Assembly (NCBI GenBank): GCA_016779485.1
Contig: JADHNN010000003.1
Location: 1 to 64,000, forward strand
Source of the DNA: Gammaproteobacteria bacterium
Lineage (GTDB): Bacteria > Pseudomonadota > Gammaproteobacteria > GCA-002705445 > GCA-002716945
Direction of reading: 5' to 3'
Length of the DNA stretch: 64,000 nucleotides
Part shown: one piece after another, positions 206 through 27,511 of the stretch
How the letters are laid out: every line of letters begins with the position of its first letter
Position numbering within the stretch: the first letter of the stretch is position 1
Notes under the pieces: model-generated
Seen by the model: only the letters and a program-made list of their open reading frames with translations
Databases searched by the model: none
Told to the model about the DNA's origin: nothing
Position numbers and translations under genes: made by a program

Positions 206-985
206 TTAATTATGAAAATCATTGAGGTCAATATTTAACTGTTTGTGTTTTTCTCTCCAATAAATTAATTCAAAATTAACTGAAAAATCCTCAACTAGTG
301 CCGAACAACTGTCTACCCAATCTCCGTCATTCATATATCTTATAGTTTCTATATCTCTAATTTTGGCTGTATGAGTATGGCCACATATGACTCCTGAAAA
401 ATTTCTAGATTTAGCATGCTTACAAATATATTCTTCAAACTCATATAAATATTGTAGATACCCCTTGGCCTTAGTCTTCATCATTCCAGAAAAACTCCAG
501 TATGGTCTATTAAAATACTTTCTAATCCTATTTATGACACCGCTAGTCCATACCGCATAAGAATATGCTCTATCACCAAAGTATGATAGCCATGGGTATT
601 GCATGGTTTTATCAAAATAATCACCATGAGTGATTAGATACTTTTTATCGTCCACTCCAATATGAATAAACTCATCAACGATGGATATTGATCCGAAATT
701 TATATCAAATTCAAGATATTTACGGAGCGCTTCATCATGATTGCCAAGCACATATATAACTTTTGTGCCACGTTTAGCAGCAGTAAGAAATCTTCTGATT
801 ACATTCGTGTGTTCTTGTGGCCAATGAAAACCATTATTGACTTGCCAGCCATCTATAATATCACCTATGAGATATAAGTTTTGAGATGTATTTCTTTTTA
901 GAAAACTCAATAGTACATCAGCCTGGCACCCTGTAGTGCCTAGATGTATATCTGATATAAAGATTGAACGGTACTGCTGTTCCAC
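206..985 (-). CDS. LpxH-like metallophosphoesterase (UDP-2,3-diacylglucosamine diphosphatase family)
   Basis: A 259-aa calcineurin-like phosphoesterase. The dinuclear metal site is complete: DIHLG (residues 12-16), GDIIDGW (41-47), GNHDE (81-85), a THGD near 120 and GHTHT near 203. The length and the spacing GD-x2-D / GNHD match COG2908, which includes LpxH, the enzyme that hydrolyses UDP-2,3-diacylglucosamine to lipid X in lipid A synthesis. Other members of this subfamily lie beside acyltransferases and are not proven LpxH, so the substrate is uncertain. No signal peptide is seen, so it is cytoplasmic. It precedes the acyltransferase fragment at 1-142 on the same strand and may be cotranscribed with it. 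Confidence 0.8.
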   Translation of the reverse strand: MEQQYRSIFISDIHLGTTGCQADVLLSFLKRNTSQNLYLIGDIIDGWQVNNGFHWPQEHTNVIRRFLTAAKRGTKVIYVLGNHDEALRKYLEFDINFGSISIVDEFIHIGVDDKKYLITHGDYFDKTMQYPWLSYFGDRAYSYAVWTSGVINRIRKYFNRPYWSFSGMMKTKAKGYLQYLYEFEEYICKHAKSRNFSGVICGHTHTAKIRDIETIRYMNDGDWVDSCSALVEDFSVNFELIYWREKHKQLNIDLNDFHN

Positions 986-1046: not shown

Positions 1047-2057
1047 TTAATTTGGCATATGTTTATTTATAAACATCATAAGTATTTTTTTTGCATCAAT
1101 ACTAGGTTGGGAATTATATTGAACATATGCACCCTGAGAAGTGCATTCGTCAAGAAACCTAGTCCTATTTTTGAGACTACTTAGGTCCATGTTGTCATTT
1201 AGATTGACTGTTTGAAATATGGGGCTTATTTTCAATAGACATTTATCAGTGTTAGCATTAAGAACAGGTTGCCAAGGAAGATAAGATCCAAAGAAAAAAG
1301 CATAATTGTCAAAACCATGATATGCATCAGCAAGTATATGATACTCAATATTTTCATCATTAAGTTTAGAAATTAATTCTGAGCAATAAGAGGCAGGTGT
1401 AATTTTATCTTTGTTTCCACTAATTAGTAGCATAGGTATATCAGTTACATTTTCTTTATCAATATCAAATCCACAATAAGTATACATACCAGCTAAAAAT
1501 TCAAAATCATTTTTGTAAACGAGTTTGTCATAAAGATGTTTATTTTTTAGTAGAATAGGCCCTATACCTCCCTTGGACCAACCAATATAACCAATTTTCC
1601 CATTTAATCTTGGATGTGTTCTTAGTATTTTTGCAGAATTTATAACATCAGACACCATCATCGGTTCTGTGACATATTTGAATGTAAAATCTATGATAGT
1701 ATCCCTTGGTGTAAAGTGATCAATTATTAGCACTGCATACCCATGTCTTAGCATCATATCCTTATAATCATAATGAAAACGAAAGATACCTCCAGCGCCA
1801 TGAGATATTATGATTAACGATACAGGGGTGTCAATATTTGGAGGAAAGTATAAGTGGCCTGGGATAGCGATGTTTTCAGGATCATTGTCATTGAAATCAT
1901 AGATATTCTTACTATCTATACAAATAGTTGAGGCCTCTTTATCGGAGAACAAAGAAGTTGGATGTTGGTTCTCACATGCACTTACAGGATAAATATCTGG
2001 TTTGACAAAGATAATTATTAAAAATAAAACAAGCAGCACATAGAATATTTTTTTCAT
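1047..2057 (-). CDS. Secreted or membrane-anchored dienelactone-hydrolase-like alpha/beta hydrolase
   Basis: A 336-aa protein with a hydrophobic N-terminal segment (about residues 4-20) that is either a signal peptide or an anchor. The hydrolase core shows an oxyanion region ISHGAGG, the nucleophile elbow GWSKGG, an acidic strand LISGNKDKITP and the catalytic His in DAYHGFDNYAF. This triad and order match the dienelactone hydrolase family; the nucleophile is Ser rather than Cys. The substrate is unknown. The C-terminal ~60 residues (from about 275, with two Cys) extend past the catalytic His. It is followed by only 61 bp before the LpxH-like gene, so cotranscription is possible. Confidence 0.7.
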   Translation of the reverse strand: MKKIFYVLLVLFLIIIFVKPDIYPVSACENQHPTSLFSDKEASTICIDSKNIYDFNDNDPENIAIPGHLYFPPNIDTPVSLIIISHGAGGIFRFHYDYKDMMLRHGYAVLIIDHFTPRDTIIDFTFKYVTEPMMVSDVINSAKILRTHPRLNGKIGYIGWSKGGIGPILLKNKHLYDKLVYKNDFEFLAGMYTYCGFDIDKENVTDIPMLLISGNKDKITPASYCSELISKLNDENIEYHILADAYHGFDNYAFFFGSYLPWQPVLNANTDKCLLKISPIFQTVNLNDNMDLSSLKNRTRFLDECTSQGAYVQYNSQPSIDAKKILMMFINKHMPN

Positions 2058-2574
2058 CAGTTATTAATATACAACACATTTATTATCAATTTGTGAAATA
2101 AATACCTATAATTGTTTCATGAAGTATACAGAAGTCCCCTATACATTCATATTCTTATATGCGTTTTCTGTAGCATTAAATGACTAACAGTTAAAAATGA
2201 CCAGAATAAAGGTTTTTGACCCTAGTAATGCAAACATTATCTACACTAACATTAGAGAGACGCTGAATAATTATAAATGGAGAGAATAATATACCCAGCG
2301 CCCTACACTTGGAGGTTATAAATTATTCTAGGAGGTATATGTTAAAGAAAAATTAAAGGTTTGTTTTTGTTAGTTTAAATATTTTGTACTAGAAGTGTTT
2401 TATTCATATCTTAATCATAACAAGAAAGTGTGTGGCTAGAGTAGTCTTTTAATCAAATTTACTCACTATAAATAGTAGCAATATGGAGTGTATTGTGTGC
2501 TTGTGTACTGTGTGTCTTTACTTGATTAATAAAACAAATCTTTTAGCTCTTTATTCTTTTCAAGTAAGTCTTTC
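2058..2574. other. 517-bp gap with no convincing gene
   Basis: The gap separates the hydrolase and alcohol dehydrogenase genes. It contains repeat copy 1 (2428-2450). A 30-codon plus-strand reading frame at 2197-2289 and an AGGAGG before a five-codon frame near 2341 look like chance: the first has no ribosome site and the second encodes almost nothing. A plus-strand frame from 2483 into the dehydrogenase gene is its antisense shadow. No RNA gene was recognised. Confidence 0.5.
2428..2450. repeat. Intergenic repeat, copy 1
   Basis: A 23-bp core: GTGTGTGGCTAG, then AG, then TAGTCTTTT. It is identical to copy 3. The flanks CAAGAAA on the left and AATCAAA on the right are shared with copy 2. It lies about 125 bp past the stop of the alcohol dehydrogenase gene. 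Within the core GGCTA and TAGTC can pair around a 3-nt loop, followed by a T run on the plus strand, but the flanking genes are on the minus strand. Confidence 0.8.
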
Positions 2575-3582
2575 TTATATCGTTCTTGATAAAACCGCAC
2601 GATATCTAATTTTGTTTTCCTTAACTTTCTTTATGGCTTTATTAACATCAGAAAATTTAAATTGCTCTACTATAGGCTTAATATTTTTTTCAGCAGCAAT
2701 TTTCAACATTTCTTTCATCATTTTTCTGCTGCCGCCTGGGTTACCAGATATCTTGATTCTTTTCATGATCAAACTAAATGCATGGATGCTAATTGGGCTT
2801 GGCGGTATTCCAACAAAACAAATATTTCCATCTACATCTAGGGTATTAGCGAGACTAGTCCAATCAAGGTCTGCGTGAGCAGTCACAAGTATAAAATCAA
2901 ATTTATTTTTTAATTTAGAAAGATTTTTATAATCTACTGCAATAGTTGCTCCAAACTTTTTAGCTTCAGTTTTCTTGCTTAATGATGATGTTACTGCTGT
3001 AACGTGATAACCCATGGCTTTGCCATATTGAATTGCCAGATGACCCAAGCCACCTATTCCTATCACAGCAACACGGTCCTTTGGCTTAACCTTGTAACCT
3101 CGATAAGCACCATGTACAGTCCATCCAGCGCACATTAATGGGGCTGCATGTTCCGATTTTAACTTTTCAGGTATAGGATATATAACGCTTTTATCAGCCT
3201 TAACATAGTCTGCAAATCCACCATTGCGACCAACAGCTGTCATCTCAGGAGATGCACACATATTATCTCTATCAGTTTTACAGTATGTGCATTTTTCACA
3301 TACTTTAGAGAACCATCCGATCCCAACACGTTGTCCTAATTTTAAATTTTTTACCTGAGAACCTTTTTGTATTATGAAACCAACAATTTCATGACCTGGA
3401 ATAAAAGGATAATTCGAGATGCCCCAGTCATTATCTATTAGATGTATATCGCTATAGCAAATTCCGCAGTGACTTATTTCAACAACTACCTCTTTAGGTG
3501 CTATCTTCTTTATTTGATAACTTTGAGGTAACAATTTTGAATTAGCTTTTTTAGCACCATATCCACTAACGATTCTATCCAT
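2575..3582 (-). CDS. Zinc-dependent NAD(P) alcohol dehydrogenase (cinnamyl/YahK-type MDR family)
   Basis: A 335-aa medium-chain dehydrogenase/reductase. The catalytic zinc site reads HCGICYSDIH followed by PGHEIVG. The structural zinc lobe carries the four cysteines C-x2-C-x2-C-x7-C in the stretch CEKCTYCKTDRDNMC. The Rossmann glycines read GIGGLGHLAIQYGKAMG. The layout fits NADP-preferring aldehyde reductases of the cinnamyl alcohol dehydrogenase/YahK group, which interconvert alcohols and aldehydes in the cytoplasm. The physiological substrate is not deducible. Repeat copy 1 follows the gene and copy 2 precedes it, so it sits as one unit of the repeat-separated array. Confidence 0.88.
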   Translation of the reverse strand: MDRIVSGYGAKKANSKLLPQSYQIKKIAPKEVVVEISHCGICYSDIHLIDNDWGISNYPFIPGHEIVGFIIQKGSQVKNLKLGQRVGIGWFSKVCEKCTYCKTDRDNMCASPEMTAVGRNGGFADYVKADKSVIYPIPEKLKSEHAAPLMCAGWTVHGAYRGYKVKPKDRVAVIGIGGLGHLAIQYGKAMGYHVTAVTSSLSKKTEAKKFGATIAVDYKNLSKLKNKFDFILVTAHADLDWTSLANTLDVDGNICFVGIPPSPISIHAFSLIMKRIKISGNPGGSRKMMKEMLKIAAEKNIKPIVEQFKFSDVNKAIKKVKENKIRYRAVLSRTI

Positions 3583-3658
3583 TTATATTTCCTTAAAATT
3601 ACATTATATGCTTCTTAGATCTTATGTATTTGTTAATTTCGTTAATTATACCAAGAAA

Positions 3659-3681
3659 GCATGTTGCTAGGGTAGTCTTTT
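3659..3681. repeat. Intergenic repeat, copy 2 (diverged)
   Basis: It matches copies 1 and 3 at 19 of 23 positions (GCATGTTGCTAG, GG, TAGTCTTTT) and shares the longer flanks CCAAGAAAG and AATCAAA with copy 1. It abuts the 3' end of the ATP-grasp gene: the stop codon at 3684-3686 falls in the conserved right flank. It lies 77 bp upstream of the alcohol dehydrogenase start. Confidence 0.75.
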
Positions 3682-3683
3682 AA

Positions 3684-4781
3684 TCAAAAAGATAATACTT
3701 GTCTGTTAACTTGGGTACATAACCCCAAGCCATTATTTGTAATGGTCAGAATCATTTGTTCATAGCTCATACCAAGATTGAGCAAACATGATCTATAAAA
3801 ATAACCTTTCTGAAGACCTGGCATAAGGTTAGCTTCAATAAAATGAGGAACGCCGTTATGATTCATTTTAATGTCAATTCGTCCCAGTGACTTACCGTCC
3901 AATGCTTTAAATGCGTCCTTTGCAAAATCAGAAAGTTGATTATAAATCTTTCTATCTGTAATCGGAATGACACTTTCTTGATCATTTTTTTTAATATCAT
4001 AGTCAAGAATATAATGACCATTTATGTTTTTATCTACAATAATTTCTATCGGCATTGCTCTTAGATTTCCATTAGAGTTATCTTGAAGAATACTGACAGT
4101 GTACTCTTTACCAGGCAAGTACGTCTCTACCATAGAACATGAATTTTGATTATGTTTAATATCTAATATCTTTTTTTGAAAACTTAAAAAATCATACACG
4201 ATAGACTCTTTATCTACTCCTCTACTGTCTCCACCTGTTAAGGGCTTTATGAAAAGAGGAAATGCAATAGGAATCGACATTTCAGTTAGGTACTCGTTAT
4301 GCTCTGTTGTAAAAAAATCAGCTGTCTTAATATTAGCTTTTTGCATAATTTTTTTGGCTATACTTTTATCATGCTCATTATGGAGTGCTTCTCTGTTTGA
4401 AGCGATGTATGAAATATCATAACTTTCTAAATAGTCATTAAGCCAAATAATTCCATCATCAAAATAAAAGTATTTAACACCCGAGAAAACTAAATCTGGT
4501 TTTCTTAATGCTAATTTTTTCAAATCATTTTTAGTATTGATTGTGGTAATTGAAACATTTCTATAATGCCTTGATAAAATTTCTAAAATGAGATTTTCAT
4601 CTAATTTAATCGCGACGTTTTTTTGACTTAGTGCTATGTCATCTAATTTAGGAACAATAACAATTTCAATTGTTTTATCTATTTTTTGCGGAAAAACATA
4701 CTTTTTATCAAAGGGTAAAATCTTTTGTACATTATTAGATGTTGCTACAATTTCTATATTTTTTATTTCTTCTATATTCAA
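3684..4781 (-). CDS. D-Ala-D-Ala-ligase-like ATP-grasp protein
   Basis: A 365-aa ATP-grasp protein. The C-terminal two thirds match the D-alanine:D-alanine ligase fold: lysine strand FPLFIKPLTGGDSRGV, hinge MVETYLPGKEYTVSIL, and metal-binding strand GRIDIKMNHNGVPHFIEANLMPGL with the expected Asp, Glu and Asn. The N-terminal ~75 residues are not typical Ddl sequence. The gene is far from any cell-wall operon and sits in the repeat-separated array. A specialised carboxylate-amine ligase is therefore more likely than the housekeeping Ddl. The stop codon lies within the flank of repeat copy 2. Confidence 0.75.
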   Translation of the reverse strand: MNIEEIKNIEIVATSNNVQKILPFDKKYVFPQKIDKTIEIVIVPKLDDIALSQKNVAIKLDENLILEILSRHYRNVSITTINTKNDLKKLALRKPDLVFSGVKYFYFDDGIIWLNDYLESYDISYIASNREALHNEHDKSIAKKIMQKANIKTADFFTTEHNEYLTEMSIPIAFPLFIKPLTGGDSRGVDKESIVYDFLSFQKKILDIKHNQNSCSMVETYLPGKEYTVSILQDNSNGNLRAMPIEIIVDKNINGHYILDYDIKKNDQESVIPITDRKIYNQLSDFAKDAFKALDGKSLGRIDIKMNHNGVPHFIEANLMPGLQKGYFYRSCLLNLGMSYEQMILTITNNGLGLCTQVNRQVLSF

Positions 4782-5047
4782 AATAAATTCTTATGCTCCA
4801 TCTACGCACGGTTTTCTTGTGAACCCGATTGGTACTATAGTCTAGTATTGGTTGATAATATTTACTAAAATATTCAGGTTTGCAGAGTGTTGATTCTACG
4901 GCAGTGAAACACACACTAGCATGATTTGCGGGGAATAGATATGAATACTATCTATATATTTATTGTATATATCTTTTTCTAAAGAAGATAGACCCTTTAA
5001 ACATGGTTGGTAACCATAAACAAACCTAAATATATACAGCCGTGTGA

Positions 5048-5070
5048 GTGTGTGGCTAGAGTAGTCTTTT
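5048..5070. repeat. Intergenic repeat, copy 3
   Basis: The core is identical to copy 1. On its right it continues as TGTAAAGTTAA to 5081, shared with copy 4. It lies about 57 bp past the stop of the 97-aa membrane protein gene and 266 bp ahead of the ATP-grasp gene. Confidence 0.8.
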
Positions 5071-5105
5071 TGTAAAGTTAAAGCACGACAATAATGCAGT
5101 AAGAT

Positions 5106-5130
5106 AATCTATACAAAGTGTGTATAGATT
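5106..5130 (-). terminator. Perfect 10-bp hairpin after the 97-aa membrane protein gene
   Basis: AATCTATACA and TGTATAGATT form a perfect inverted repeat around a 5-nt loop, 8 bp past the minus-strand stop. The stem is AT-rich and the minus-strand tail is only weakly T-rich, so it may be an RNA-stabilising hairpin rather than an efficient intrinsic terminator. Confidence 0.4.
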
Positions 5131-5137
5131 GTTGCTA

Positions 5138-5431
5138 TTAATAGTTAATGCATTTTTTTACAAAAGTATTTGAGATTATAATACCTATTAAAAAAGCTGG
5201 TATTGATATATAAGTATAAGTCCAGTCACCATGCATGAATGCTGGGTAGAAAGGTATTATATAAAACAGTTCTAGCATAAAGAAAAACCATGCTAAGAAA
5301 ATAAATATTCCATAGTCAGGATAGATGTCTACTAAGAGTTCATGACCTGCAGCAAATCCAACCAAAAACCCAATTGCATAGCATATATTTGTTAAAAGCT
5401 TGAAAAACCATACATGCGAATTTCCCATCAT
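5138..5431 (-). CDS. 97-aa membrane protein of unknown function
   Basis: A small protein with about three hydrophobic segments (residues ~10-28, 40-58 and 72-90), probably in the inner membrane. I recognise no family. Two ATGs stand in tandem at the start; an AGGGGG Shine-Dalgarno a few bases upstream supports initiation here, with the second ATG (5428) equally possible. It is bracketed by repeat copies 3 and 4, making it the shortest unit in the repeat-separated array. It has no operon partner on either side without an intervening repeat. Confidence 0.6.
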   Translation of the reverse strand: MMGNSHVWFFKLLTNICYAIGFLVGFAAGHELLVDIYPDYGIFIFLAWFFFMLELFYIIPFYPAFMHGDWTYTYISIPAFLIGIIISNTFVKKCINY

Positions 5432-5506
5432 ATACCCCCTAGCTACAATTAGTATATTATGGTTATATTTAAAATTACAAGCAATTACTGTTATGTTCCC
5501 CCTGAG

Positions 5507-5529
5507 GTGTGTGGCTAGACTAGTCTTTT
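5507..5529. repeat. Intergenic repeat, copy 4
   Basis: It differs from copies 1 and 3 by one base (GAC instead of GAG in the middle), which makes AGACTAGTCT a perfect palindrome. The right flank TGTAAAGTTAA (to 5540) is shared with copy 3, so copies 3 and 4 match over 34 bp with one mismatch. It lies between the AhpD-like gene and the 97-aa membrane protein gene. Confidence 0.8.
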
Positions 5530-5585
5530 TGTAAAGTTAAGATACAACTATTTAGATAATAATAAAGTCTATCAATTTATAATAG

Positions 5586-6140
5586 TTATTTACCCCATGC
5601 ATTCGTTTCGAATACTTCATCAATCTTTGTATCTGTTATATGGTTAGTGTAATTTGACATGACTTTCATTGCAGTTCCTACAATAATATCTAATATTACC
5701 TCTTTGCTATAACCAGCAGCAAGAAAATCATTTACTTCATTTTTACTTGGCCATCCACGTGTCTCATTTATGATAGAAGTAAATTTACGCAAAGCCTCCA
5801 ATTTTTTGTCTTTAATTGGTTTGTTGTCCCTCAGAGACTCAATTACATCATAAGGAATTTTTGCCATTTGTGAGACAGTTGTATGTGCAGCCATGCAATA
5901 GGGACATTCATGTTTATTTGCATTGGTCATGAGGATAATCTGTCTTTCCGTTTCTGTTAATGAAGTTTTGTCAAAGATATCATTAATTGCCATATAACTT
6001 TCTAGCATTGCTGGAGATTCTGCTATAACCGCCATGAAATTTGGTATAAAACCCCATTTATCATTAATTTTTTGTAAGATATCTTTTGATTCATCTGGTG
6101 CTGTCTCAACTGTGTGTATTTTAAAATCACTCATATACAT
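5586..6140 (-). CDS. AhpD/carboxymuconolactone-decarboxylase-like peroxidase
   Basis: A 184-aa protein with the alkylhydroperoxidase-D core: a helix ending HECPYCMAAH supplies the redox-active C-x2-C followed by the conserved His. This matches the peroxidase-related CMD subfamily. Members reduce peroxides using the CxxC disulfide, but the reductant and substrate here are unknown. It has no signal peptide. The start is either 6140 or the third codon (6134), which is better spaced from a GGGA ribosome site. It is the first gene of the repeat-separated array in the direction of transcription; repeat copy 4 lies about 55 bp past its stop. Confidence 0.8.
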   Translation of the reverse strand: MYMSDFKIHTVETAPDESKDILQKINDKWGFIPNFMAVIAESPAMLESYMAINDIFDKTSLTETERQIILMTNANKHECPYCMAAHTTVSQMAKIPYDVIESLRDNKPIKDKKLEALRKFTSIINETRGWPSKNEVNDFLAAGYSKEVILDIIVGTAMKVMSNYTNHITDTKIDEVFETNAWGK

Positions 6141-6191
6141 TTCCCATAAGATTTTATAAATTATTTATTAACTTTATTATATCTCAGTGGA

Positions 6192-6341
6192 ATGAAGTCA
6201 CAATATCTGATTACCAATCAGGATGAAAATACTATTGAGGGTTATCATGAGATATTAGGTTATGTTGTGTTTCACAAAAAGCTAGAAACTCTTTATCAAA
6301 AATTACTAATTCTAGATCCACTTGTAGGCAATTATAAGTGA
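6192..6341 (+). CDS. Possible 49-aa small protein
   Basis: A short plus-strand frame lying entirely between two minus-strand genes. It encodes a mixed, non-repetitive peptide beginning MKSQYLITNQDENTIEGYHE and ending LDPLVGNYK. There is only a weak purine stretch ahead of the ATG. Amino acid composition looks protein-like rather than antisense-like, and it nearly fills the gap. It ends one base before the stop of the convergent lipoprotein gene. No family recognised; it could also be a remnant of a longer gene. Confidence 0.35.
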   Translation: MKSQYLITNQDENTIEGYHEILGYVVFHKKLETLYQKLLILDPLVGNYK

Positions 6342-6342
6342 A

Positions 6343-6801
6343 CTAAATACCTCTAGTAAAACAACCAGATAGATCAGTGCCACTTATTAGTAATTTACCT
6401 GTACTAGGGCTTTTGATGAATTGATAAACCTGACAAGTACGTGTAAGCATTCTATCTGTACCTCTATACATACCGCCAGTTGTCAATTTAACAAAACAGG
6501 TATTATTATCCATAATAATTTTTGTACTAACTCCATTAGCATTAGCAAGTGCTTTAAAAGCTGGGCCTACTGAATAGGAGGTGGCTACAAATTTTGTAAC
6601 ACCAATATCATCTGAAGATTCACAAATTTCATTTATAAATTCTTTTGTTACACATTTATTATTGTCTCTATCTTTACATGATCCGTCAGGATAATAAGTG
6701 TATTGAATACCTGTTTCCATATCATCAGCTGGATTAGATGAACAAGCAGATATAATTAAAGTTAACATTACCATATAGACAATTTTTAGATTAGATTTCA
6801 T
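6343..6801 (-). CDS. Putative lipoprotein of unknown function (152 aa)
   Basis: The frame is open further upstream, but the ATG at 6801 is chosen. It is preceded by AGGA at good spacing, and it begins MKSNLKIVYMVMLTLIISAC, a lipoprotein signal with lipobox ISAC and the lipidated Cys at residue 20. The mature part is Cys-rich (six further Cys) and ends in CFTRGI. No enzymatic motif is visible. The start lies 7 bp past the stop of the 601-aa gene upstream, so the two form an operon and probably act together in the envelope. Confidence 0.65.
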   Translation of the reverse strand: MKSNLKIVYMVMLTLIISACSSNPADDMETGIQYTYYPDGSCKDRDNNKCVTKEFINEICESSDDIGVTKFVATSYSVGPAFKALANANGVSTKIIMDNNTCFVKLTTGGMYRGTDRMLTRTCQVYQFIKSPSTGKLLISGTDLSGCFTRGI

Positions 6802-6808
6802 TTTTTTC

Positions 6809-8614
6809 CTAGTTGCTGATAACAATAGCGCGGTACTTAGCAGCACTTTTATTAAATAATACTTTATTAGTTAATCTGTCGTATATTTTAACATCTAAAA
6901 TTAGAGTATCAGCAGAGTTTTGTGCTTTTATTTTAAAGTTAGATTTTAAATCAATTACAAGGCCTTCTCTAGTCTCTCTCCCGGCACGATTAACATTATG
7001 TGATGGATATAGTTTATAAAATGAACCATTAGTGATTTCAAGTTGAGTATCGGCACCGTATCGTCCAGCACCAACAAAACATGCCATTATATTCAGGTGA
7101 TTACCATTCATGCCACATGAAATTACAGCCTTATAAGGGTGTTCTTTAGCATATCTTGCAGCTTGCTCTTTTCTTCTAATTGCCACCTCCTCAGCATCTT
7201 TTTTTCTTTGAGCATCAGCAATTTCTTTTGCTTTCTTTTCTTTTGCTAATCTAGCATCTCTTTGCTTTAAAATATCAATCCCTTTTTCTCGAGCTACCTG
7301 CAGATCTTTCAAGTACATAAGTACATTTTTTATTCCTTTATCTTTAGAATAATCAGACTTGATCATCTTTGATTCAAGCTCATAAAACTTATCTATATTA
7401 GTAACTTTAAACTTTTTAAGCTGATCAAGTTGTGATTTATTACCTTTGAGGGCACTGATAAAACTATAGTCTGCATATGATCGATAACCTTGATATAACG
7501 CAAATCTCTTTAAGGTTTCATCGCTAGAAATAGATGTAGAGTAAGTTGTTATAATTTTATCCGATTTAAGAGCATCATGAAGCTTTACAATATTTTTAGG
7601 ATAGTCAATGAAATAAGAACATTGAGATTTGTTTTCTTTAATTTCTAAATATGCATCATTAATATCTTTGTAAACTTTTTTAAATTGATGAGATGGTTTT
7701 TTATCATATTTATCAGATAATATTAGATTGTGTCCAATTACTTTTGGGCCACTATCGTTTTCTGATGAATAATCTAAAGTGCAACGGTTTTGTCCATCTT
7801 GATTTAATCTCAATCCAACGGTGTATTTAATATCGTCGGTATTAGCTTGTTGTTTAATTTTTTCCACAAACTGATTGTATTTATCAATTTTAGCTTGCTC
7901 TTTTTTCTTAATAGCATTGGACATTTCAAGAAGAGAGTCATATGAAACTGTGTGTATGACATCATTCTTACTAAATGAGACAACATTGTTGTATTGATCA
8001 AACCACATATTAAAGATATCAAACATATATCTTGGTAGAACTACAATCTCATCTTCGAACCAATTAAAGGAATCTTTGTTTACCTTTCTTGGTGTAGGAG
8101 AACCTGGTTTTTGCCTGATGAGACGACAGTTTACACTTAAATCAAGACCTTTGCCCAAGCTTGATAAATGCATACTTACTTTTTCAGAGCCTAATGTAAG
8201 AACATCATGTATACCAACACCCTGATAATTTTTGTGAACATCAAGAAAAAATAATTTGTCTTTATCTACCTTAGTTTCAATAAACGTAAAAACCTTATCA
8301 TATTGTTCTCTTTCATTTCTATCAAGAAGACTGCACGTATCAATGTCTATACCTTTTATTTTTGAGCTAATGACTCTATTGCCATCAATATCTTTTATAA
8401 ATACAGGCGGTTTAGCATTGGGGTTAGATATTATCAGTAAATCAAATAGTTTCTTATTCTCTTCTGATACTTGAGATAGTGCAACTGAAGAGAACAGCAA
8501 GAAGGGTAGTAGAATTAATTTTAAATAAAGCAATATACAAATACGCTCTTTGTTAGAATTTATAATTAAATGAGGAATTAGCTGATTCATTTCTATATTA
8601 TTGGTTACAAGCAT
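6809..8614 (-). CDS. Large exported protein of unknown function with coiled-coil segment (601 aa)
   Basis: A hydrophobic stretch at about residues 26-47, ending VALSQ, looks like a signal peptide or anchor. This suggests that translation starts at the ATG at 8590 rather than 8614. The middle has no motif I recognise. Residues ~445-500 are rich in Lys, Glu, Arg and Ala and predict a coiled coil. The C-terminal ~100 residues, from PYKAVISCGMNG, look like a beta-rich domain with two Cys. It is cotranscribed with the downstream lipoprotein gene and diverges from the PQQ-type dehydrogenase gene across 37 bp. Probable periplasmic or membrane-attached role; function unknown. Confidence 0.6.
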   Translation of the reverse strand: MLVTNNIEMNQLIPHLIINSNKERICILLYLKLILLPFLLFSSVALSQVSEENKKLFDLLIISNPNAKPPVFIKDIDGNRVISSKIKGIDIDTCSLLDRNEREQYDKVFTFIETKVDKDKLFFLDVHKNYQGVGIHDVLTLGSEKVSMHLSSLGKGLDLSVNCRLIRQKPGSPTPRKVNKDSFNWFEDEIVVLPRYMFDIFNMWFDQYNNVVSFSKNDVIHTVSYDSLLEMSNAIKKKEQAKIDKYNQFVEKIKQQANTDDIKYTVGLRLNQDGQNRCTLDYSSENDSGPKVIGHNLILSDKYDKKPSHQFKKVYKDINDAYLEIKENKSQCSYFIDYPKNIVKLHDALKSDKIITTYSTSISSDETLKRFALYQGYRSYADYSFISALKGNKSQLDQLKKFKVTNIDKFYELESKMIKSDYSKDKGIKNVLMYLKDLQVAREKGIDILKQRDARLAKEKKAKEIADAQRKKDAEEVAIRRKEQAARYAKEHPYKAVISCGMNGNHLNIMACFVGAGRYGADTQLEITNGSFYKLYPSHNVNRAGRETREGLVIDLKSNFKIKAQNSADTLILDVKIYDRLTNKVLFNKSAAKYRAIVISN

Positions 8615-8651: not shown

Positions 8652-9749
8652 ATGCTTTTTTTTAATGTTATGAAAAATATTGTATTTATATTAATGCTTT
8701 CTGTGTGTGTACATCATGTGCATGCATCTGAGAGTAGCTATAGTGTCATTGAAATCTCTAGCAATCTTAATGAGCCGTGGGGTATGACATTTATAGATCA
8801 TAAATCATTGCTTATTACAGAAAAAACAGGTTCTTTAATTAATGTCAATAGCGTAACAGGCGATAAATTTGAGATTGAGCATGACTTAGATTTTTATTAT
8901 TACGGTCAAGGAGGATTACTTGATATTTTATATCATGATGACTATGTATATGTTAGTTACTCTGAAGACAGAGGTGATGGAAAGTCATCAACATCTATAG
9001 CAAGAGGATTATACAATGATAGAAAAATAAATTTCCAAAATATCTTTAGAGCAGAACCTCCGATCGATAGTGGATATCATTTTGGCTCTAGGATTGTTAT
9101 CAAAGATGATTACTTGTATGCAACTGTTGGTGAACGTGGAAAAGGTATGATTGCACAAGATGTAACGAACCATCCAGGTAGTATAATAAGAATACATTTG
9201 AATGGATCAATACCAAAAGATAATCCAAAGTTTATTGATAAACCAGATTGGTTACCAGAGGTTTATCAAATTGGCGTAAGAAATCCACAAGGAATGTCCC
9301 TTTCCCCATTTGATAATAAGATTTATATTTCAAATCATGGAGCTAGAGGTGGTGACTTCTTTGGAGAAGTTAAAAAAGGAGAAAATTATGGGTGGAAGAT
9401 TATAGGCTGGGGCGGAAAGAACTATGTAGGAACTAAAATTGGAGATGGAAGTAACTGGAAGCTAGGCTTTACAAAACCATTATGGACATGGGTGCCTTCA
9501 ATAGCACCAAGTAATATACTCATTTATAGTGGTAATAAGTTTCCCGAATGGGATGGTGATGTATTAGTAACCTCTCTGAAAAGCAAAACTTTGTTTAGAC
9601 TCGATTTTGAAAAAGGGGTTATTAAAAATCAATATATAATTTTTGAAGATCTTATAGGAAGAATTAGAGATATTGAAATAAATAATAATGGAGAAATTTT
9701 CTTAATAGATTCAGATAGTTCCGCAAGTTTATGGCAATTGAAAAAATAA
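8652..9749 (+). CDS. PQQ-type soluble aldose sugar dehydrogenase (beta-propeller)
   Basis: A 365-aa exported protein (or 359 aa from the ATG at 8670, which gives a cleaner signal peptide ending VHAS). It shows hallmarks of the soluble glucose/aldose sugar dehydrogenase family (YliI/Asd type): LNEPWGMTFI with ITEKTG near the N terminus, GQGGLLDILYHDDYVYVSYS, HFGSRIV, and IGVRNPQGM before GENYGWKIIGWGG. These enzymes oxidise sugars in the periplasm with a PQQ cofactor. No PQQ synthesis genes are in this window, so cofactor source is unknown. A small outer-membrane-like gene follows 13 bp downstream, suggesting an operon. Confidence 0.82.
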   Translation: MLFFNVMKNIVFILMLSVCVHHVHASESSYSVIEISSNLNEPWGMTFIDHKSLLITEKTGSLINVNSVTGDKFEIEHDLDFYYYGQGGLLDILYHDDYVYVSYSEDRGDGKSSTSIARGLYNDRKINFQNIFRAEPPIDSGYHFGSRIVIKDDYLYATVGERGKGMIAQDVTNHPGSIIRIHLNGSIPKDNPKFIDKPDWLPEVYQIGVRNPQGMSLSPFDNKIYISNHGARGGDFFGEVKKGENYGWKIIGWGGKNYVGTKIGDGSNWKLGFTKPLWTWVPSIAPSNILIYSGNKFPEWDGDVLVTSLKSKTLFRLDFEKGVIKNQYIIFEDLIGRIRDIEINNNGEIFLIDSDSSASLWQLKK

Positions 9750-9762
9750 ATGGGAGAGATAA

Positions 9763-10131
9763 ATGTTCAGAATAATTCAATTTTTATTGGTATATATTTT
9801 TATAGTACCTACATCAAGTGCAGAAACATATATAGCAACAAGGCAGGAGTTGTGGTTCAATGATTCAAGCTACACTAAAACTTCACATCATATTAAAGTA
9901 GGAAAAAATTTCATAATGGGTGATTATAGATTTTTTGGTGAGCTGGGCGTTGGTGAAGATATAAGTGAAGGGACGCCTATAGGATCAGGGTTATCTTATG
10001 ATTACTTGCGTTTTGGTGTTACTAGAAAGTTTTTTAATTCACTAAGGTTAAACGTGAATTATCGAAGTAAAATGAAATCTGTTGGAAAAGACCTTAATTG
10101 GATTGTTATTAATACTAAATACACATTTTGA
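9763..10131 (+). CDS. Small exported beta-barrel-like protein (122 aa)
   Basis: It begins with a signal peptide ending PTSSAE. The mature part has alternating hydrophobic/polar strands such as YDYLRFGVTRKFF and LRLNVNYRSK, and finishes IVINTKYTF. A C-terminal Phe preceded by alternating residues is the classic outer-membrane barrel insertion signal. At ~100 mature residues it could form a small eight-strand barrel. The family is not recognised. It follows the PQQ-type dehydrogenase by 13 bp with a GGGAGAG ribosome site, so it is probably cotranscribed. Confidence 0.6.
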   Translation: MFRIIQFLLVYIFIVPTSSAETYIATRQELWFNDSSYTKTSHHIKVGKNFIMGDYRFFGELGVGEDISEGTPIGSGLSYDYLRFGVTRKFFNSLRLNVNYRSKMKSVGKDLNWIVINTKYTF

Positions 10132-10143
10132 CTATAATCGGTT

Positions 10144-10320
10144 ATGAAAGATATCTTTATTTTAGTTTTATTATTTTTTATAGCAATAGTATTATTGAAT
10201 AATAAAATACTTAATAGAAACCTGAGTTATCTCTTGGCAGGAATAGTTTCCTTCTTTTTTGTGATCATGTTAATTTATTTAGTCATGGAAGAGATAATGA
10301 TGTATTTTTTAAATATATAG
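10144..10320 (+). CDS. 58-aa membrane peptide
   Basis: A short frame starting 12 bp after the barrel-like gene and ending 5 bp before the next gene. It has two hydrophobic segments (residues ~4-18 and 30-47) separated by a polar turn with NNKILNRN, typical of a small two-helix inner membrane protein. No family is recognised. Tight spacing on both sides supports it as a real operon member. Confidence 0.55.
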   Translation: MKDIFILVLLFFIAIVLLNNKILNRNLSYLLAGIVSFFFVIMLIYLVMEEIMMYFLNI

Positions 10321-10325
10321 AGATC

Positions 10326-10775
10326 ATGATTACAGATAAAAATATAACAGAATTCATTTCTTCGTGGAAGGATGGAATAATACTTATTCAGGAAGCATAC
10401 ATCACGAATAACGATTATAAAGAACTGGCACGTAACTTTGTTGATAATCATTACCTCTTTAATGAAGAATTGGTTTTATTTAAACCTACACTAACTAATG
10501 ATGTAGTTTTTCGAAATACTTCGGATGATGCTCTTTCATATTTTATCGGAGGTAAGTACCCAGAAGATAAAGGTTTTGCATTAAATGATTTTGAAGATAT
10601 TGAAATTGATGAGATAAATACAATCATAGAAAAAGAGCTTATAGCTGTAATGGGTGTTTTTATTCTTAGACTAAAAAATACTAATGATCCTCTTAGGATA
10701 GCATTTACTTTTATATTGAAATCTACCAATATTGGCTTAAAAATTAAGATTCATCACTCATCACTAATTAAATAA
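10326..10775 (+). CDS. NTF2/SnoaL-like small protein (149 aa)
   Basis: A 149-aa soluble protein. The pattern of an N-terminal helix with FISSWKDGI, a mid region around FKPTLTNDVVFR, then paired strands ending RIAFTFILKS and LKIKIHHSS resembles the SnoaL-like/NTF2 fold, whose members commonly finish with such an HHSS strand. No catalytic assignment is possible. It is the last gene of the plus-strand run from 8652 and converges on the helicase gene with 10 bp between stops. The fold call is from pattern only. Confidence 0.45.
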   Translation: MITDKNITEFISSWKDGIILIQEAYITNNDYKELARNFVDNHYLFNEELVLFKPTLTNDVVFRNTSDDALSYFIGGKYPEDKGFALNDFEDIEIDEINTIIEKELIAVMGVFILRLKNTNDPLRIAFTFILKSTNIGLKIKIHHSSLIK

Positions 10776-10785
10776 AGATTTAATC

Positions 10786-12204
10786 TTAGCGACTGCTGTG
10801 CCTAGATACTTTAGATCTTCCTTTAGCTTTACTAAAGAATGGTTTTTTGCTAGCTGATCTCGAATTAGTTTTACTATAGGGTTCTTTTTTACCGGTATCG
10901 GTTTTTGTAGATCTAGATACTGTATTTTTTGAATGTTTCTTTTGATTAGATTTTTTTTTACCCTCTGATTTTTTTTGTGTGTCTTTTCCTATGATAGAAT
11001 TATTTCTTCTTCTTGGACCGTTACTTTTTGAAAAGCTTCTTGTGGGTTTTTTTTGTCTCAATGATTCCCTACTTCTTTTTCTTACAGCTCTACTATTAGT
11101 CTTTTTTGGTTTCTTAGCTGTATCAGGATGTAGAAGATAATATATTTCATCCCAAATATTCTGCTCTTCTGATGAAACAAAACATATAGTAGAACCAGAT
11201 GATCCTGCTCTACCGGTTCTACCAATTCTATGAATATAATCTTCTGCAACCTGAGGCAGATCATAATTTATAACATGTTGAATGTGATCTATGTCAAGTC
11301 CTCTTGATGCAATATCTGTTGCGACAAGGACTTTAAATTTCTTAAACCTAAAGTCTGACATTACTCTATCTCTTTTGTTTTGATTTAGATTTCCATTAAG
11401 AGCGTCAGCTTTAAAACCATCTTCACAAAGTTTTTTTGCCATCCTTTGTGTACCAAATTTAGTTTTTGTAAATATTAATACTGAACCTTCACGAGTAGAA
11501 AGCTGATTAAGTAATTCTTTATATTTTTTATTGTGATCAATATTAAGAATATTATGATCAATATTAGTAAGCAGGACATTGTCTGACTTTATTGCTACTC
11601 TTTCAGGCTCATGTAAATATTTTTTTGATAATTCTATGATTTTATCTGGTAAAGTTGCTGAAAAAAGCAGTATTTGTTTTTTAATAGGGAGATATTTAAA
11701 TATCTTATCAATTTGTTTGCCAAAACCCATATCTAACATTCTATCGGTTTCATCTAAAACTAAATAAGTACAATTATTCAAATCAATCTTTTTATTTTCT
11801 AGATGATCATTAATTCTCCCAGGAGTTCCAACTATAATCCTAGGGTGATCTTTTAATTGTCTAATCTGAATTCTTAATGCTTCACCGCCTATCAAACATG
11901 CTGATTTAATCTTATCGCCATTATTAGTTAGTTGATTAATTACATCTATAACTTGTCTGGCTAATTCCCTTGTTGGCATCATAATTAAGGCTATAGATTT
12001 TTCATCTTTTGATAACATTTCTATGATTGGTATACAAAAAGCAGCAGTTTTACCTGTACCAGTTTGAGCTGAGCCTAATATATCTGAACCATTTAATACA
12101 ATTGGTATAGCTTTTATCTGAATAGGAGTAGGTTTTACAAACTTCATGTCTGCTAATGCATTATTCATTTTCTTAGACAATCCAAAGTTTTCAAAATTAT
12201 TCAT
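10786..12204 (-). CDS. DEAD-box RNA helicase, RhlE-like
   Basis: A 472-aa helicase. The core (residues ~1-370) has the Q motif TPIQIKAIP, Walker A AQTGTGKT, PTRELA, motif II, SAT, and the C-terminal lobe with ATDIASRGLDI and YIHRIGRTGRAG. Motif II reads DETD in place of the usual DEAD, an accepted variant. Residues ~375-472 form a Lys/Arg/Ser-rich disordered tail, as in RhlE and other RNA-binding helicases. It probably acts in ribosome assembly or RNA turnover, especially in the cold. The next gene in the same direction is absent, so it is monocistronic. Confidence 0.88.
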   Translation of the reverse strand: MNNFENFGLSKKMNNALADMKFVKPTPIQIKAIPIVLNGSDILGSAQTGTGKTAAFCIPIIEMLSKDEKSIALIMMPTRELARQVIDVINQLTNNGDKIKSACLIGGEALRIQIRQLKDHPRIIVGTPGRINDHLENKKIDLNNCTYLVLDETDRMLDMGFGKQIDKIFKYLPIKKQILLFSATLPDKIIELSKKYLHEPERVAIKSDNVLLTNIDHNILNIDHNKKYKELLNQLSTREGSVLIFTKTKFGTQRMAKKLCEDGFKADALNGNLNQNKRDRVMSDFRFKKFKVLVATDIASRGLDIDHIQHVINYDLPQVAEDYIHRIGRTGRAGSSGSTICFVSSEEQNIWDEIYYLLHPDTAKKPKKTNSRAVRKRSRESLRQKKPTRSFSKSNGPRRRNNSIIGKDTQKKSEGKKKSNQKKHSKNTVSRSTKTDTGKKEPYSKTNSRSASKKPFFSKAKGRSKVSRHSSR

Positions 12205-12409
12205 TTATATCCTTACTGTTAAATTAAAAATTATCTTATTAGAGATATTTACTGGTTCTATCTATTTAAAGTTGCGGAAAAATATTGAGTTATGTAATTG
12301 ATAGCCAATAACTGAGATCAATTTACACCTCATAGAGAAGAATACAAGTTATTATTGTAAACTTACACCTAAATAGTTATAAATATATTAGATAAACGAG
12401 AGAGTGATA
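12205..12409. promoter_or_regulatory. Divergent promoter region of the helicase and MazG-like genes
   Basis: About 200 bp with no credible frame. On the minus strand AGGTGTAAGTT and AGGTGTAAATT occur about 46 bp apart, a possible paired regulator site. No clear sigma-70 pair was identified with confidence. Confidence 0.3.
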
Positions 12410-12712
12410 ATGACAGAAATGAATTATGAACAATTAATTGCACAATGGCATCAAGATAGAAACCTTATTGATGGAAGTACAGATAAAGATCAATATCTTA
12501 AATTAATACAAGAGGCAGGAGAGTTATCCGATAGTTTATGTAAAGGGAAAGATATACGTGATGACATTGGAGATATGATGGTAGTGTTAATTAATATTAT
12601 GGTTAGAAATGGATTGAAAATGAATGATTGTCTTGAAGTGGCTTACAATGATATTAAAGATAGAAAAGGAAAAATGGTGGATGGTGTTTTTATAAAAGAA
12701 GGTGATAATTAG
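12410..12712 (+). CDS. MazG-like nucleotide pyrophosphohydrolase (100 aa)
   Basis: The frame opens with a GTG six bases earlier, but the ATG at 12410 has a GAGAG ribosome site at better spacing. The protein carries the all-alpha NTP-pyrophosphatase signature: a helix LIQEAGELSDSL with metal-binding acidic residues, then DIRDDIGDMMVVL. It resembles the single-domain, phage-type MazG-like family rather than full-length MazG. These enzymes hydrolyse (d)NTPs to monophosphates, often as house-cleaning enzymes. Convergent with the flavoprotein gene downstream, 27 bp apart. Confidence 0.75.
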   Translation: MTEMNYEQLIAQWHQDRNLIDGSTDKDQYLKLIQEAGELSDSLCKGKDIRDDIGDMMVVLINIMVRNGLKMNDCLEVAYNDIKDRKGKMVDGVFIKEGDN

Positions 12713-12739
12713 TAAATTGTTATCGCTTTTGTAATATGA

Positions 12740-13921
12740 TTAAGTATATTGTCCAGCGACATAACCAGATGACCATGCCCATTGGAAATTGTGTCCGCCA
12801 AGATGGCCTGTGACATCAACCACCTCCCCTATAAAGAAAAGGCCATGATATTTCTTAGACATCATGGTTTTTGATGATAATTCATCTGTATCGACTCCAC
12901 CTCTCGTCACCTCAGCTGTGCGGTAGCCTTCAGTATCTTTTGGAGCTATAGTCCATTTTGTAAAATGATTGCGAATATTATCTATTGACTGCTTTGAAAT
13001 CTCAGAGATATTTCCTGAGTAGTTATATTTCTTACAAAACATACTAACAAATCTTTTCGGAAGAAATTCAGATAAGATATTTACAATACTTTGTTTTGGA
13101 CTTGTGGCTCGCTTTTGATTAATAGTATGATCAAAATTATGATTCGGAAGGAAATTAATATTTATGTTGTTTCCCTTGTTCCAGTAGGATGATATTTGTA
13201 ATATTGATGGACCGCTAAGTCCACGATGTGTAAATAGCATTCCTTCTTCGAACGAAATATTTTCATAAGATATTTTTGAATTAAATGACAATCCTGATAA
13301 TTGATTACACATATCTAATATTTCATCTGTAAATGTAAATGGTACCAATGCAGGTGACGTGTTAATTACATTTATATTAAATTGCTTTGCAAGCTTATAA
13401 CCAAAGTCAGTTGCGCCTATTTTTGGTATGGAGAGTCCTCCAGTTGCAATCACAAGAGATTTTGAAATATAAGTATCATCATTGCTAATAACAGAATATT
13501 GATTATCAATATTTTCTACTTTATCAACAGTGAATTCTTTCTTTATTGTGACATTTGCTTTATTGCATTCTGACAGAAGCATATCTATTATCAATTGAGA
13601 TTTATCATCACAAAATAATTGACCAAGAGTTTTCTCATGATAGGCGATATTATGCTTTTTAATTAGTTTGATAAAATCAAACTGAGTATATTGAGTAAGA
13701 GCAGATATAGAAAAATTAGCATTTTGTGATAAAAAATTATTCGAACTAGTATGTAAATTCGTAAAATTACATCTACCGCCACCGGATATACGGATTTTTT
13801 CGCCTATTTTATTTGAATGATCAACAACAATGACTGACTTTCCCCTCTTTCCAGATTCGATAGCGCACATTAGACCTGCAGCTCCACCGCCTATAATCAG
13901 AACATCAACATTATAATTCAT
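12740..13921 (-). CDS. HI0933/YhiN-family FAD-dependent oxidoreductase
   Basis: Translation is placed at the ATG at 13921, which begins five residues before the dinucleotide fold; the frame extends to 13936. The N terminus VLIIGGGAAGLMCAIESGKRG is the FAD-binding motif, followed by GEKIRISGGGRCNFTN, a family hallmark. The C terminus has TRGGVDTDELSSKTMMSKKYHGLFFIGEVVDVTGHLGGHNFQWAWSSG, shown here by its parts GGVDTDEL and GGHNFQWAWSSG. The 393-aa length is typical. The family is widespread and its physiological reaction is unknown. Confidence 0.85.
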   Translation of the reverse strand: MNYNVDVLIIGGGAAGLMCAIESGKRGKSVIVVDHSNKIGEKIRISGGGRCNFTNLHTSSNNFLSQNANFSISALTQYTQFDFIKLIKKHNIAYHEKTLGQLFCDDKSQLIIDMLLSECNKANVTIKKEFTVDKVENIDNQYSVISNDDTYISKSLVIATGGLSIPKIGATDFGYKLAKQFNINVINTSPALVPFTFTDEILDMCNQLSGLSFNSKISYENISFEEGMLFTHRGLSGPSILQISSYWNKGNNININFLPNHNFDHTINQKRATSPKQSIVNILSEFLPKRFVSMFCKKYNYSGNISEISKQSIDNIRNHFTKWTIAPKDTEGYRTAEVTRGGVDTDELSSKTMMSKKYHGLFFIGEVVDVTGHLGGHNFQWAWSSGYVAGQYT

Positions 13922-26602: not shown

Positions 26603-27511
26603 TTATCCTCTTGGATGATATTTTTGATGAAATTTAACTAATCTATCTTTTGCAATATGAGTGTAAATTTGCGTTGTTGATAGACTAGCATGTCCTAACA
26701 GCATCTGTACAGTCCTTAAATCAGCTCCATTATTAAGAAGATGAGTAGCAAATGCATGTCTTAAGTTATGAGGTGAAATCTTTTTATTAATATTTGATGC
26801 TGATGCATATTTTTTAATCATCTTCCAACACTCTTGTCTTGAGATTACAGTTCCTGTTTCTTTAATAAATAGCATTTCAATATTATTAATATTTTTAATA
26901 TTACATCTATACGTATCTATATATGTAAGTAATGAAGACATAGCTGATGATCCTATCGGTACAAGTCTCTCTTTACCTCCCTTACCTTTTATTTTTAAAA
27001 ATGACTTATCATGAGTTATTTGATTAACTTTTATGTTTAGCAATTCGCTTATTCTCAAGCCAGAAGAATACAGTAGCTCAAGTATACACTTATCTCTCAT
27101 ACCTGAACTCGTGCCTGTATTCGGACAAGATAATAAAGCTTCAATTTCATTTTCACTAATAATAATTGGTAGTTTTCTTCGCTTCTTAGGATTATCTATA
27201 AGCTGAGCAGGATTAGATTGAATAAAGTTATTTTCATATAAAAATAAATAAAATGATTTTATGCATGTGATTATTCTTTGAATAGTACTAACAGATACAC
27301 CTGAATCAAGTCTTGAAGCTAAATAATTGTTAATTACAACTCGATCAACATCACAAAATTTATTGTTATTATTGGATATCCATGACAGAAAAATCTTAAG
27401 GTCTGATTTATAAGCAATAATTGTGTTTTGTGTTAAATTATTTTTAAAAGACACATAATCACAAAACTGATCTATAAATTGAGATTCAATTGAATTATCT
27501 GATATTGACAT
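26603..27511 (-). CDS. xerD: Site-specific tyrosine recombinase XerD
   Basis: A 302-aa tyrosine recombinase. The N-terminal SAM-like core-binding domain covers ~10-95. The catalytic set is complete: Arg in LLYSSGLRISELL, Lys in KGKGGKERLVP, H-x2-R in SPHNLRHAFATHLL, His in LLGHASLSTTQIYTH, with the nucleophilic Tyr in QIYTH. XerC and XerD are similar; the adjoining dsbC gene decides for XerD. It resolves chromosome dimers at dif. No dif site was recognised in the window. Divergent from moeA across 45 bp. Confidence 0.92.
   Translation of the reverse strand: MSISDNSIESQFIDQFCDYVSFKNNLTQNTIIAYKSDLKIFLSWISNNNNKFCDVDRVVINNYLASRLDSGVSVSTIQRIITCIKSFYLFLYENNFIQSNPAQLIDNPKKRRKLPIIISENEIEALLSCPNTGTSSGMRDKCILELLYSSGLRISELLNIKVNQITHDKSFLKIKGKGGKERLVPIGSSAMSSLLTYIDTYRCNIKNINNIEMLFIKETGTVISRQECWKMIKKYASASNINKKISPHNLRHAFATHLLNNGADLRTVQMLLGHASLSTTQIYTHIAKDRLVKFHQKYHPRG

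Follow-up and report, generated by a model that had tools for sequence, protein, structure and literature searches.

Comparison With Described Systems

Integron arrays, including CALIN, are made up of mostly one-gene units joined head to tail in a fixed polarity, with one recombination-like site at each joint, and their units are exchanged across species. The same traits are found in an array of genes near one end of a 64,000-nucleotide stretch of gammaproteobacterial DNA (positions 1-64000 of contig C2 of genome G000, hereafter the window), where the genes are separated by a repeat with a 23-bp core, here named M. The array differs from those of integrons in several respects: M is a 23-bp site with a small dyad and has neither attC boxes nor an attC fold, no integron integrase was found, a promoter-like box often stands beside M, and the whole sits in a tRNA-targeted island. 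Single-gene modules between short sites are also known as the pdif modules of Acinetobacter, the sites of which consist of a XerC and a XerD half separated by 6 bp and alternate in orientation (PMC13141974), whereas M shows neither XerC/XerD half-sites with a 6-bp spacer nor alternating orientation.

With additive flexible genomic islands and tycheposon-like tRNA islands the array shares the small cassettes, the transfer between genera (here of units with a 97-aa protein gene and an alcohol dehydrogenase (ADH) gene) and a host among streamlined aquatic bacteria; a location at a tRNA 3' end with direct repeats of that end is seen in arrays and islands of relatives and is probable for the array of the window. 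In those islands the tell-tale repeat is a tRNA fragment (PMC10872708, PMC7771536), while here a second, unrelated 23-bp site marks the unit boundaries inside the island. Phage satellites such as PICI and PICMI resemble elements of a few kb in two related genomes (G005 and G002), with an integrase, a small terminase and tRNA attachment; the array of the window differs from them in consisting of cargo and M only. It looks as if the exchange system is neither an integron nor any other kind that could be matched. We favour, with modest confidence, the explanation that the array consists of gene cassettes in a tRNA-Arg(CCT) island, with M as their boundary and crossover site. The cassette interpretation of an earlier note, made from the window sequence alone, is largely right in that M is the joint where units are exchanged.

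The Repeat and the Units It Bounds

The four M copies of the window (plus strand, at 2428, 3659, 5048 and 5507) are real and non-random, and no further copy was found there at up to 3 mismatches (0.00 expected in shuffles). The earlier note had placed them correctly, and its description holds in that copies 1 and 3 are identical, copy 4 is one base off and copy 2 four bases off, that there are two flank classes (copies 1 and 2 have 47 bp in common at 87% identity) and that all four copies are intergenic, each after a minus-strand gene. It erred in letting one copy overlap a stop codon: the 23-bp core of copy 2 ends at 3681, shortly before the stop of the ATP-grasp gene (3684-4781), and the AATCAAA flank is what overlaps the stop. 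The genome (G000) amounts to 0.91 Mb in 12 contigs, the one holding the window being 110 kb long, and has five M copies in total; the fifth, with 3 mismatches, lies at C8:409-431, at the opposite end of the same island.

Units travel between genomes and genera as M-to-M blocks, the junctions of which coincide with M. The 97-aa gene is present in G000, G001 and G009, and a BLASTN comparison of window positions 5048-5529 with L018:4733-5214 (G009) gave 94.2% identity over 483 bp, the match beginning at the very first base of one M and ending at the very last base of the M that follows, while the neighbouring sequence differs on either side. Homology between G009 and G001 likewise runs from M to M (L018:4733-5212). 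Homology with loci L024, L021 and L018 stops exactly at the last base of M copy 1, and the ATP-grasp unit has a copy at G000:C8, where the right flank of M copy 2 recurs next to a different left side. In addition, a four-gene unit is common to G009 and G018 (93.5% nucleotide identity) and a 178-aa gene to G009 and G022. Cassette proteins are 95.8-97.8% identical across genera, against only 34-78% for the core proteins of G000 that were compared with those of G009 or G018, so the units moved recently from genus to genus. Polarity is strict, since all genes of the 12 M-bounded units (21/21) read opposite to M, and within each array every M has one orientation. The view of the earlier note that the layout reflects a cassette array or serial insertion is thus supported by units of gene plus repeat that have been gained or lost, recur in several genera and meet at the repeat.

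Conservation covers M but not its flanks: when 19 copies were aligned, each of the 23 columns had a relative entropy above 1 bit, whereas flank columns stayed below 0.85 bit, save one at 1.33, which points to selection for M itself or to a very recent spread. Among the 57 genomes of a wider search set, M was matched in six, all of them family members: G000 and G001, of the same genus, and G009, G014, G022 and G024, of one other genus. A profile model added copies in G018, G005 and G015 (third genus), and an exact-core scan of 84,980 genomes, from which G000 itself may be left out, gave matches only in two metagenome-assembled genomes (MAGs) of this family. Weak R1 matches (E > 0.005) were excluded from the evidence; at least one (G001:C8:229207) lies within a reading frame. 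Copies of the core occur only in islands and are not scattered over the genomes; the earlier note had named random scatter as a refutation of its reading.

Two occurrences deserve mention in their own right. A lone perfect M stands about 30 bp past the tmRNA 3' end in G009 (L019:5951-6350), and none follows the tmRNA in the other genomes examined. In the third genus, a degenerate M and a tRNA-Arg adjoin the gene of a 1089-aa helicase/PLD protein that resembles the MkoA/MkoC defence models (L107:2347-5616, G015).

Across arrays the cargo is mixed, with ADH, ATP-grasp, epimerase, an EVE/NOV_C protein and a cytochrome oxidase operon. The cassette gene with EVE and NOV_C domains (L018:5568-6413, G009) is possibly involved in defence. 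The cytochrome c oxidase subunit I and cytochrome c genes belong to a four-gene unit between two M copies in G014 (L022:6270-9184), away from tRNA-Arg.

Junctions Within the Repeat and a Possible Mechanism

The centre of M is a small dyad, GGCTA-gag-TAGTC, and three comparisons break within it (L097/L188, L018/L186 and L020/L021). The end genes of G005 and G002 share 97.9% identity over 289 bp, in a match that stops after GTGTGTGGCTA; the four-gene unit of G018 begins at AGTATTTT and the second AhpD gene of G001 at TAGTCTTCT. All three partial junctions (3/3) fall within the central 4-5 bp, which suggests, from few events, that M may be cut at its centre. The centre also varies in length, a gapped search having found three extra copies in which it is 1-3 bp shorter (L097:2240, L186:9729 and L021:8907). 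An apparent half M at L186:8103 is in fact a full but degenerate site that has the AATCAAA flank.

We propose that a unit comprises a single gene or short operon that reads opposite to M, and that successive units would be strung head to tail in an integrative island at the tRNA-Arg(CCT) 3' end, a slot that holds a satellite-type element in a relative. M would be cut near the centre of the dyad and the ends rejoined M to M, so that all sites would keep one orientation. The enzyme, either a recombinase or a terminase using M as a cos-like site, would act in trans and probably come from satellites or helper phages, because no candidate is found in the array: that of the window has neither integrase nor terminase. 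If so, and this we put forward only tentatively, streamlined bacteria in which no integron was found may possess an undescribed cassette system, where satellites or their helpers supply an enzyme that cuts a 23-bp dyad site in the middle, the satellites serving as vehicles and tRNA islands as docks for single-gene cassettes that can be exchanged.

The earlier note was right that the repeat is unlike attC: none of the four copies has an attC box (RYYYAAC/GTTRRRY) within 60 bp, and single-stranded DNA folding was no better than in shuffles in 5/6 stretches (z 0.81 to -0.35; copy 2, z -1.69). Its interpretation also found support as regards the cassette units, and two points that it raised did not. 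One was a linked recombinase, as none could be tied to the array itself: G000 has no serine recombinase and two Xer-type tyrosine recombinases, the latter being its two PF00589 genes and the usual XerC/XerD number. The other was an RNA-processing element or terminator, for which folding and a terminator scan gave no support. No integron integrase is among the PF00589 matches of G000, the IntI models not having been run separately. One of the Xer-type genes lies at window positions 26603-27511 with a DsbC-like gene after it, which is an ordinary arrangement of housekeeping genes.

Several points weigh against M as a cassette boundary cut at its centre. No cassette-specific enzyme was found, G000 having just the two Xer-type genes, and serine recombinases of the resolvase family are absent from 25 family genomes. 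A 3-bp spacer is unusual for tyrosine recombinases, and conservative recombinases are not known to leave length changes at the crossover. A recognisable M is missing on one or both sides of the ADH and four-gene units in G018 and upstream of AhpD in the window. The physical link of the window to the tRNA-Arg end on C8 is a predicted one, drawn from synteny. Furthermore, the data all appear to come from MAGs (two record titles say so, and the other assemblies, fragmented and incomplete, resemble MAGs), several contigs break in the island, and independent junctions are few. Contig ends truncate several of the arrays, although in the 110-kb contig of the window copies 2-4 are situated 3.6-5.5 kb from the end.

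The tRNA-Arg Island and Related Satellites

One edge of the array is tRNA-Arg(CCT), next to a TsaD-family gene, and the other edge in this genus is GSDH. In relatives this slot is empty, filled by a phage satellite with a variant M or filled by an array with different cassettes; in five same-genus genomes it has no M and holds only a photolyase gene and a small open reading frame. Direct repeats of the tRNA 3' end (CGGGCGGGGAGG) enclose the G005 satellite, each end of which also has two CCCCC-type direct repeats. Its tyrosine integrase is backed by Pfam and its small terminase (TerS) by Pfam, PHROGs and PDB profile matches, and terS lies about 100 bp from a variant of M. An AlphaFold model of its 257-aa protein was too poor to use (pLDDT 51). 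A deleted remnant, of about 0.8 kb, of the related G002-type satellite was observed in G006 (L225 4862-5727).

The array of G001 runs attL, repeat pair, M, 97-aa gene, M, AhpD and, after a gap, AhpD, M, repeat pair, attR. Standing at both ends of this array, M is not simply an element of gene 3' ends, nor of gene 5' ends. The direct repeat of the tRNA end is present at the tRNA 3' end in G005, G001, G009 and G024, and in G009 a further one lies within the array, in line with tandem integration. For G000 the tRNA end and its repeat pair are located on C8, and the window has no second copy. Pairs of CCMCC direct repeats, spaced by 12 bp, flank the tRNA-end repeats in the island ends of G000, G001, G009, G024 and G005 (loci L025, L020, L018, L021, L024 and L097); they are probably arm sites of the integrase or of an excision factor.

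Alternative Explanations

The strongest rival holds that M is a conserved linker, at which units are swapped by short-homology recombination through RecA or a phage annealing protein, with no dedicated cutting enzyme. It would account for most of the junctions, and the failure to find a recombinase speaks for it, as does the fact that M is directly repeated and often lies within 45-60 bp of shared sequence, enough for annealing-type recombination. Such boundary sequences have been proposed for phage module exchange. However, breaks in the central 4-5 bp together with length changes there look like cleavage, and the conservation above 1 bit per column is limited to M while the flanks diverge. 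We regard the linker as a serious rival, though a rather doubtful one.

M could also be a cos- or pac-like packaging site of satellites, recognised by the small terminase, with cargo accruing by re-ligation of M ends during helper infection. The position of terS beside the M variant in G005 suggests such a terminase role, and in the G002 and G006 satellites homology enters the left half of M and stops where the terS-side sequence differs. PICMI satellites are packaged as concatemers (PMC10803314), which also counts in its favour. On the other hand, exact patterns of M gave 0 matches in IMG/VR, and none of 79 viral contigs with TerS homologues was found to have an M nearby; M lies downstream of terS, and runs of cargo-M-cargo without att are not expected from ligation of whole satellites. 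The 97-aa and 76-aa proteins were not found in viral contigs, nor was any phage record found that resembles the array. A packaging site appears unlikely.

A role for M in transcription or RNA processing, as an element present with every cargo gene (an activator site at a promoter, a terminator or a processing site), is improbable; the junctions would then be a by-product of intergenic recombination. Many left flanks do have a -10-like box reading into the next gene, but the spacing to these boxes varies, the leftmost M often faces a convergent gene or a tRNA, and the rightmost M has no co-directed gene upstream. RNA folding gave no consistent structure or hairpin at M (z-scores -0.66 to 2.37), Rfam on the window and eight loci returned only tRNA and tmRNA and nothing at M, and a terminator and promoter scan found no terminator and nothing specific at M. 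Finally, action of XerCD at M, as at pdif modules, was rejected as highly implausible: although G000 encodes no tyrosine recombinases besides the two Xer-type ones, the dif-like sites of the family read CGTATAATATATATTATGT-like, M has neither arm, and M sites do not alternate.

Features of the Locus

The features of the window array and the two satellites are collected in Table 1. The 97-aa protein has no match in Pfam or PHROGs. Two AhpD homologues were found in G001, one of which has an M variant without the centre, and no M was found to the left of the dienelactone-hydrolase-like gene. Related lipoprotein-like genes (44% identity) lie one on each side of the island in G000 (window 6343-6846 and L025:464-919).

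Table 1. Coordinates of the array in the window and of satellites in related genomes.
Feature	Position	Strand	Remarks
M copy 1	2428..2450	+	GTGTGTGGCTAGAGTAGTCTTTT, downstream of ADH gene; class A left flank TAATCATAACAAGAAA, right flank AATCAAA
M copy 2	3659..3681	+	GCATGTTGCTAGGGTAGTCTTTT, between ATP-grasp and ADH genes
M copy 3	5048..5070	+	Identical to copy 1; left boundary of 97-aa unit; L018 homology begins at first base
M copy 4	5507..5529	+	One base different; right boundary of 97-aa unit; L018 homology stops at last base
M-to-M mobile unit with 97-aa membrane protein gene	5048..5529	.	Also in G001 (same genus) and G009 (other genus)
97-aa predicted membrane protein	5138..5431	-	Copies in G009 and G001 are 97.8% identical (aa)
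ATP-grasp (D-Ala-D-Ala ligase C-terminal) gene	3684..4781	-	Unit 3659-5048; second copy at G000:C8, 97.8% aa
Zinc-type alcohol dehydrogenase (ADH) gene	2575..3582	-	Unit 2428-3659; 95.8% aa copy in G018 (another genus)
AhpD/CMD-like gene	5586..6140	-	Right of copy 4; CMD E 0.022, below cut-off
Dienelactone-hydrolase-like gene	1047..2057	-	Left of copy 1; presumably array cargo
Calcineurin-like phosphoesterase gene	206..985	-	Contig end; presumably array cargo
GSDH gene	8652..9749	+	Right chromosomal edge of array in this genus
Satellite-like island in tRNA-Arg, G005	L097 (G005:C5:42500-53500), 1783-6235		Integrase, small terminase, 257-aa and 209-aa proteins
Related satellite at tRNA-Glu, G002	L188 (G002:C3:20001-40000), 9028-13614		Near-identical 76-79-aa end gene

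Implications

The hosts are Gammaproteobacteria with tiny genomes, known only from metagenomes. Streamlined bacteria of this kind have few obvious gene-capture systems, and yet their flexible islands turn over fast. If our explanation is true, a site-bounded array that moves single genes between genera, with a dock shared with satellites, would provide a concrete and testable mechanism for this turnover and would add one more cassette system to integrons and dif modules. The 23-bp site has the specificity needed for use as a search probe.

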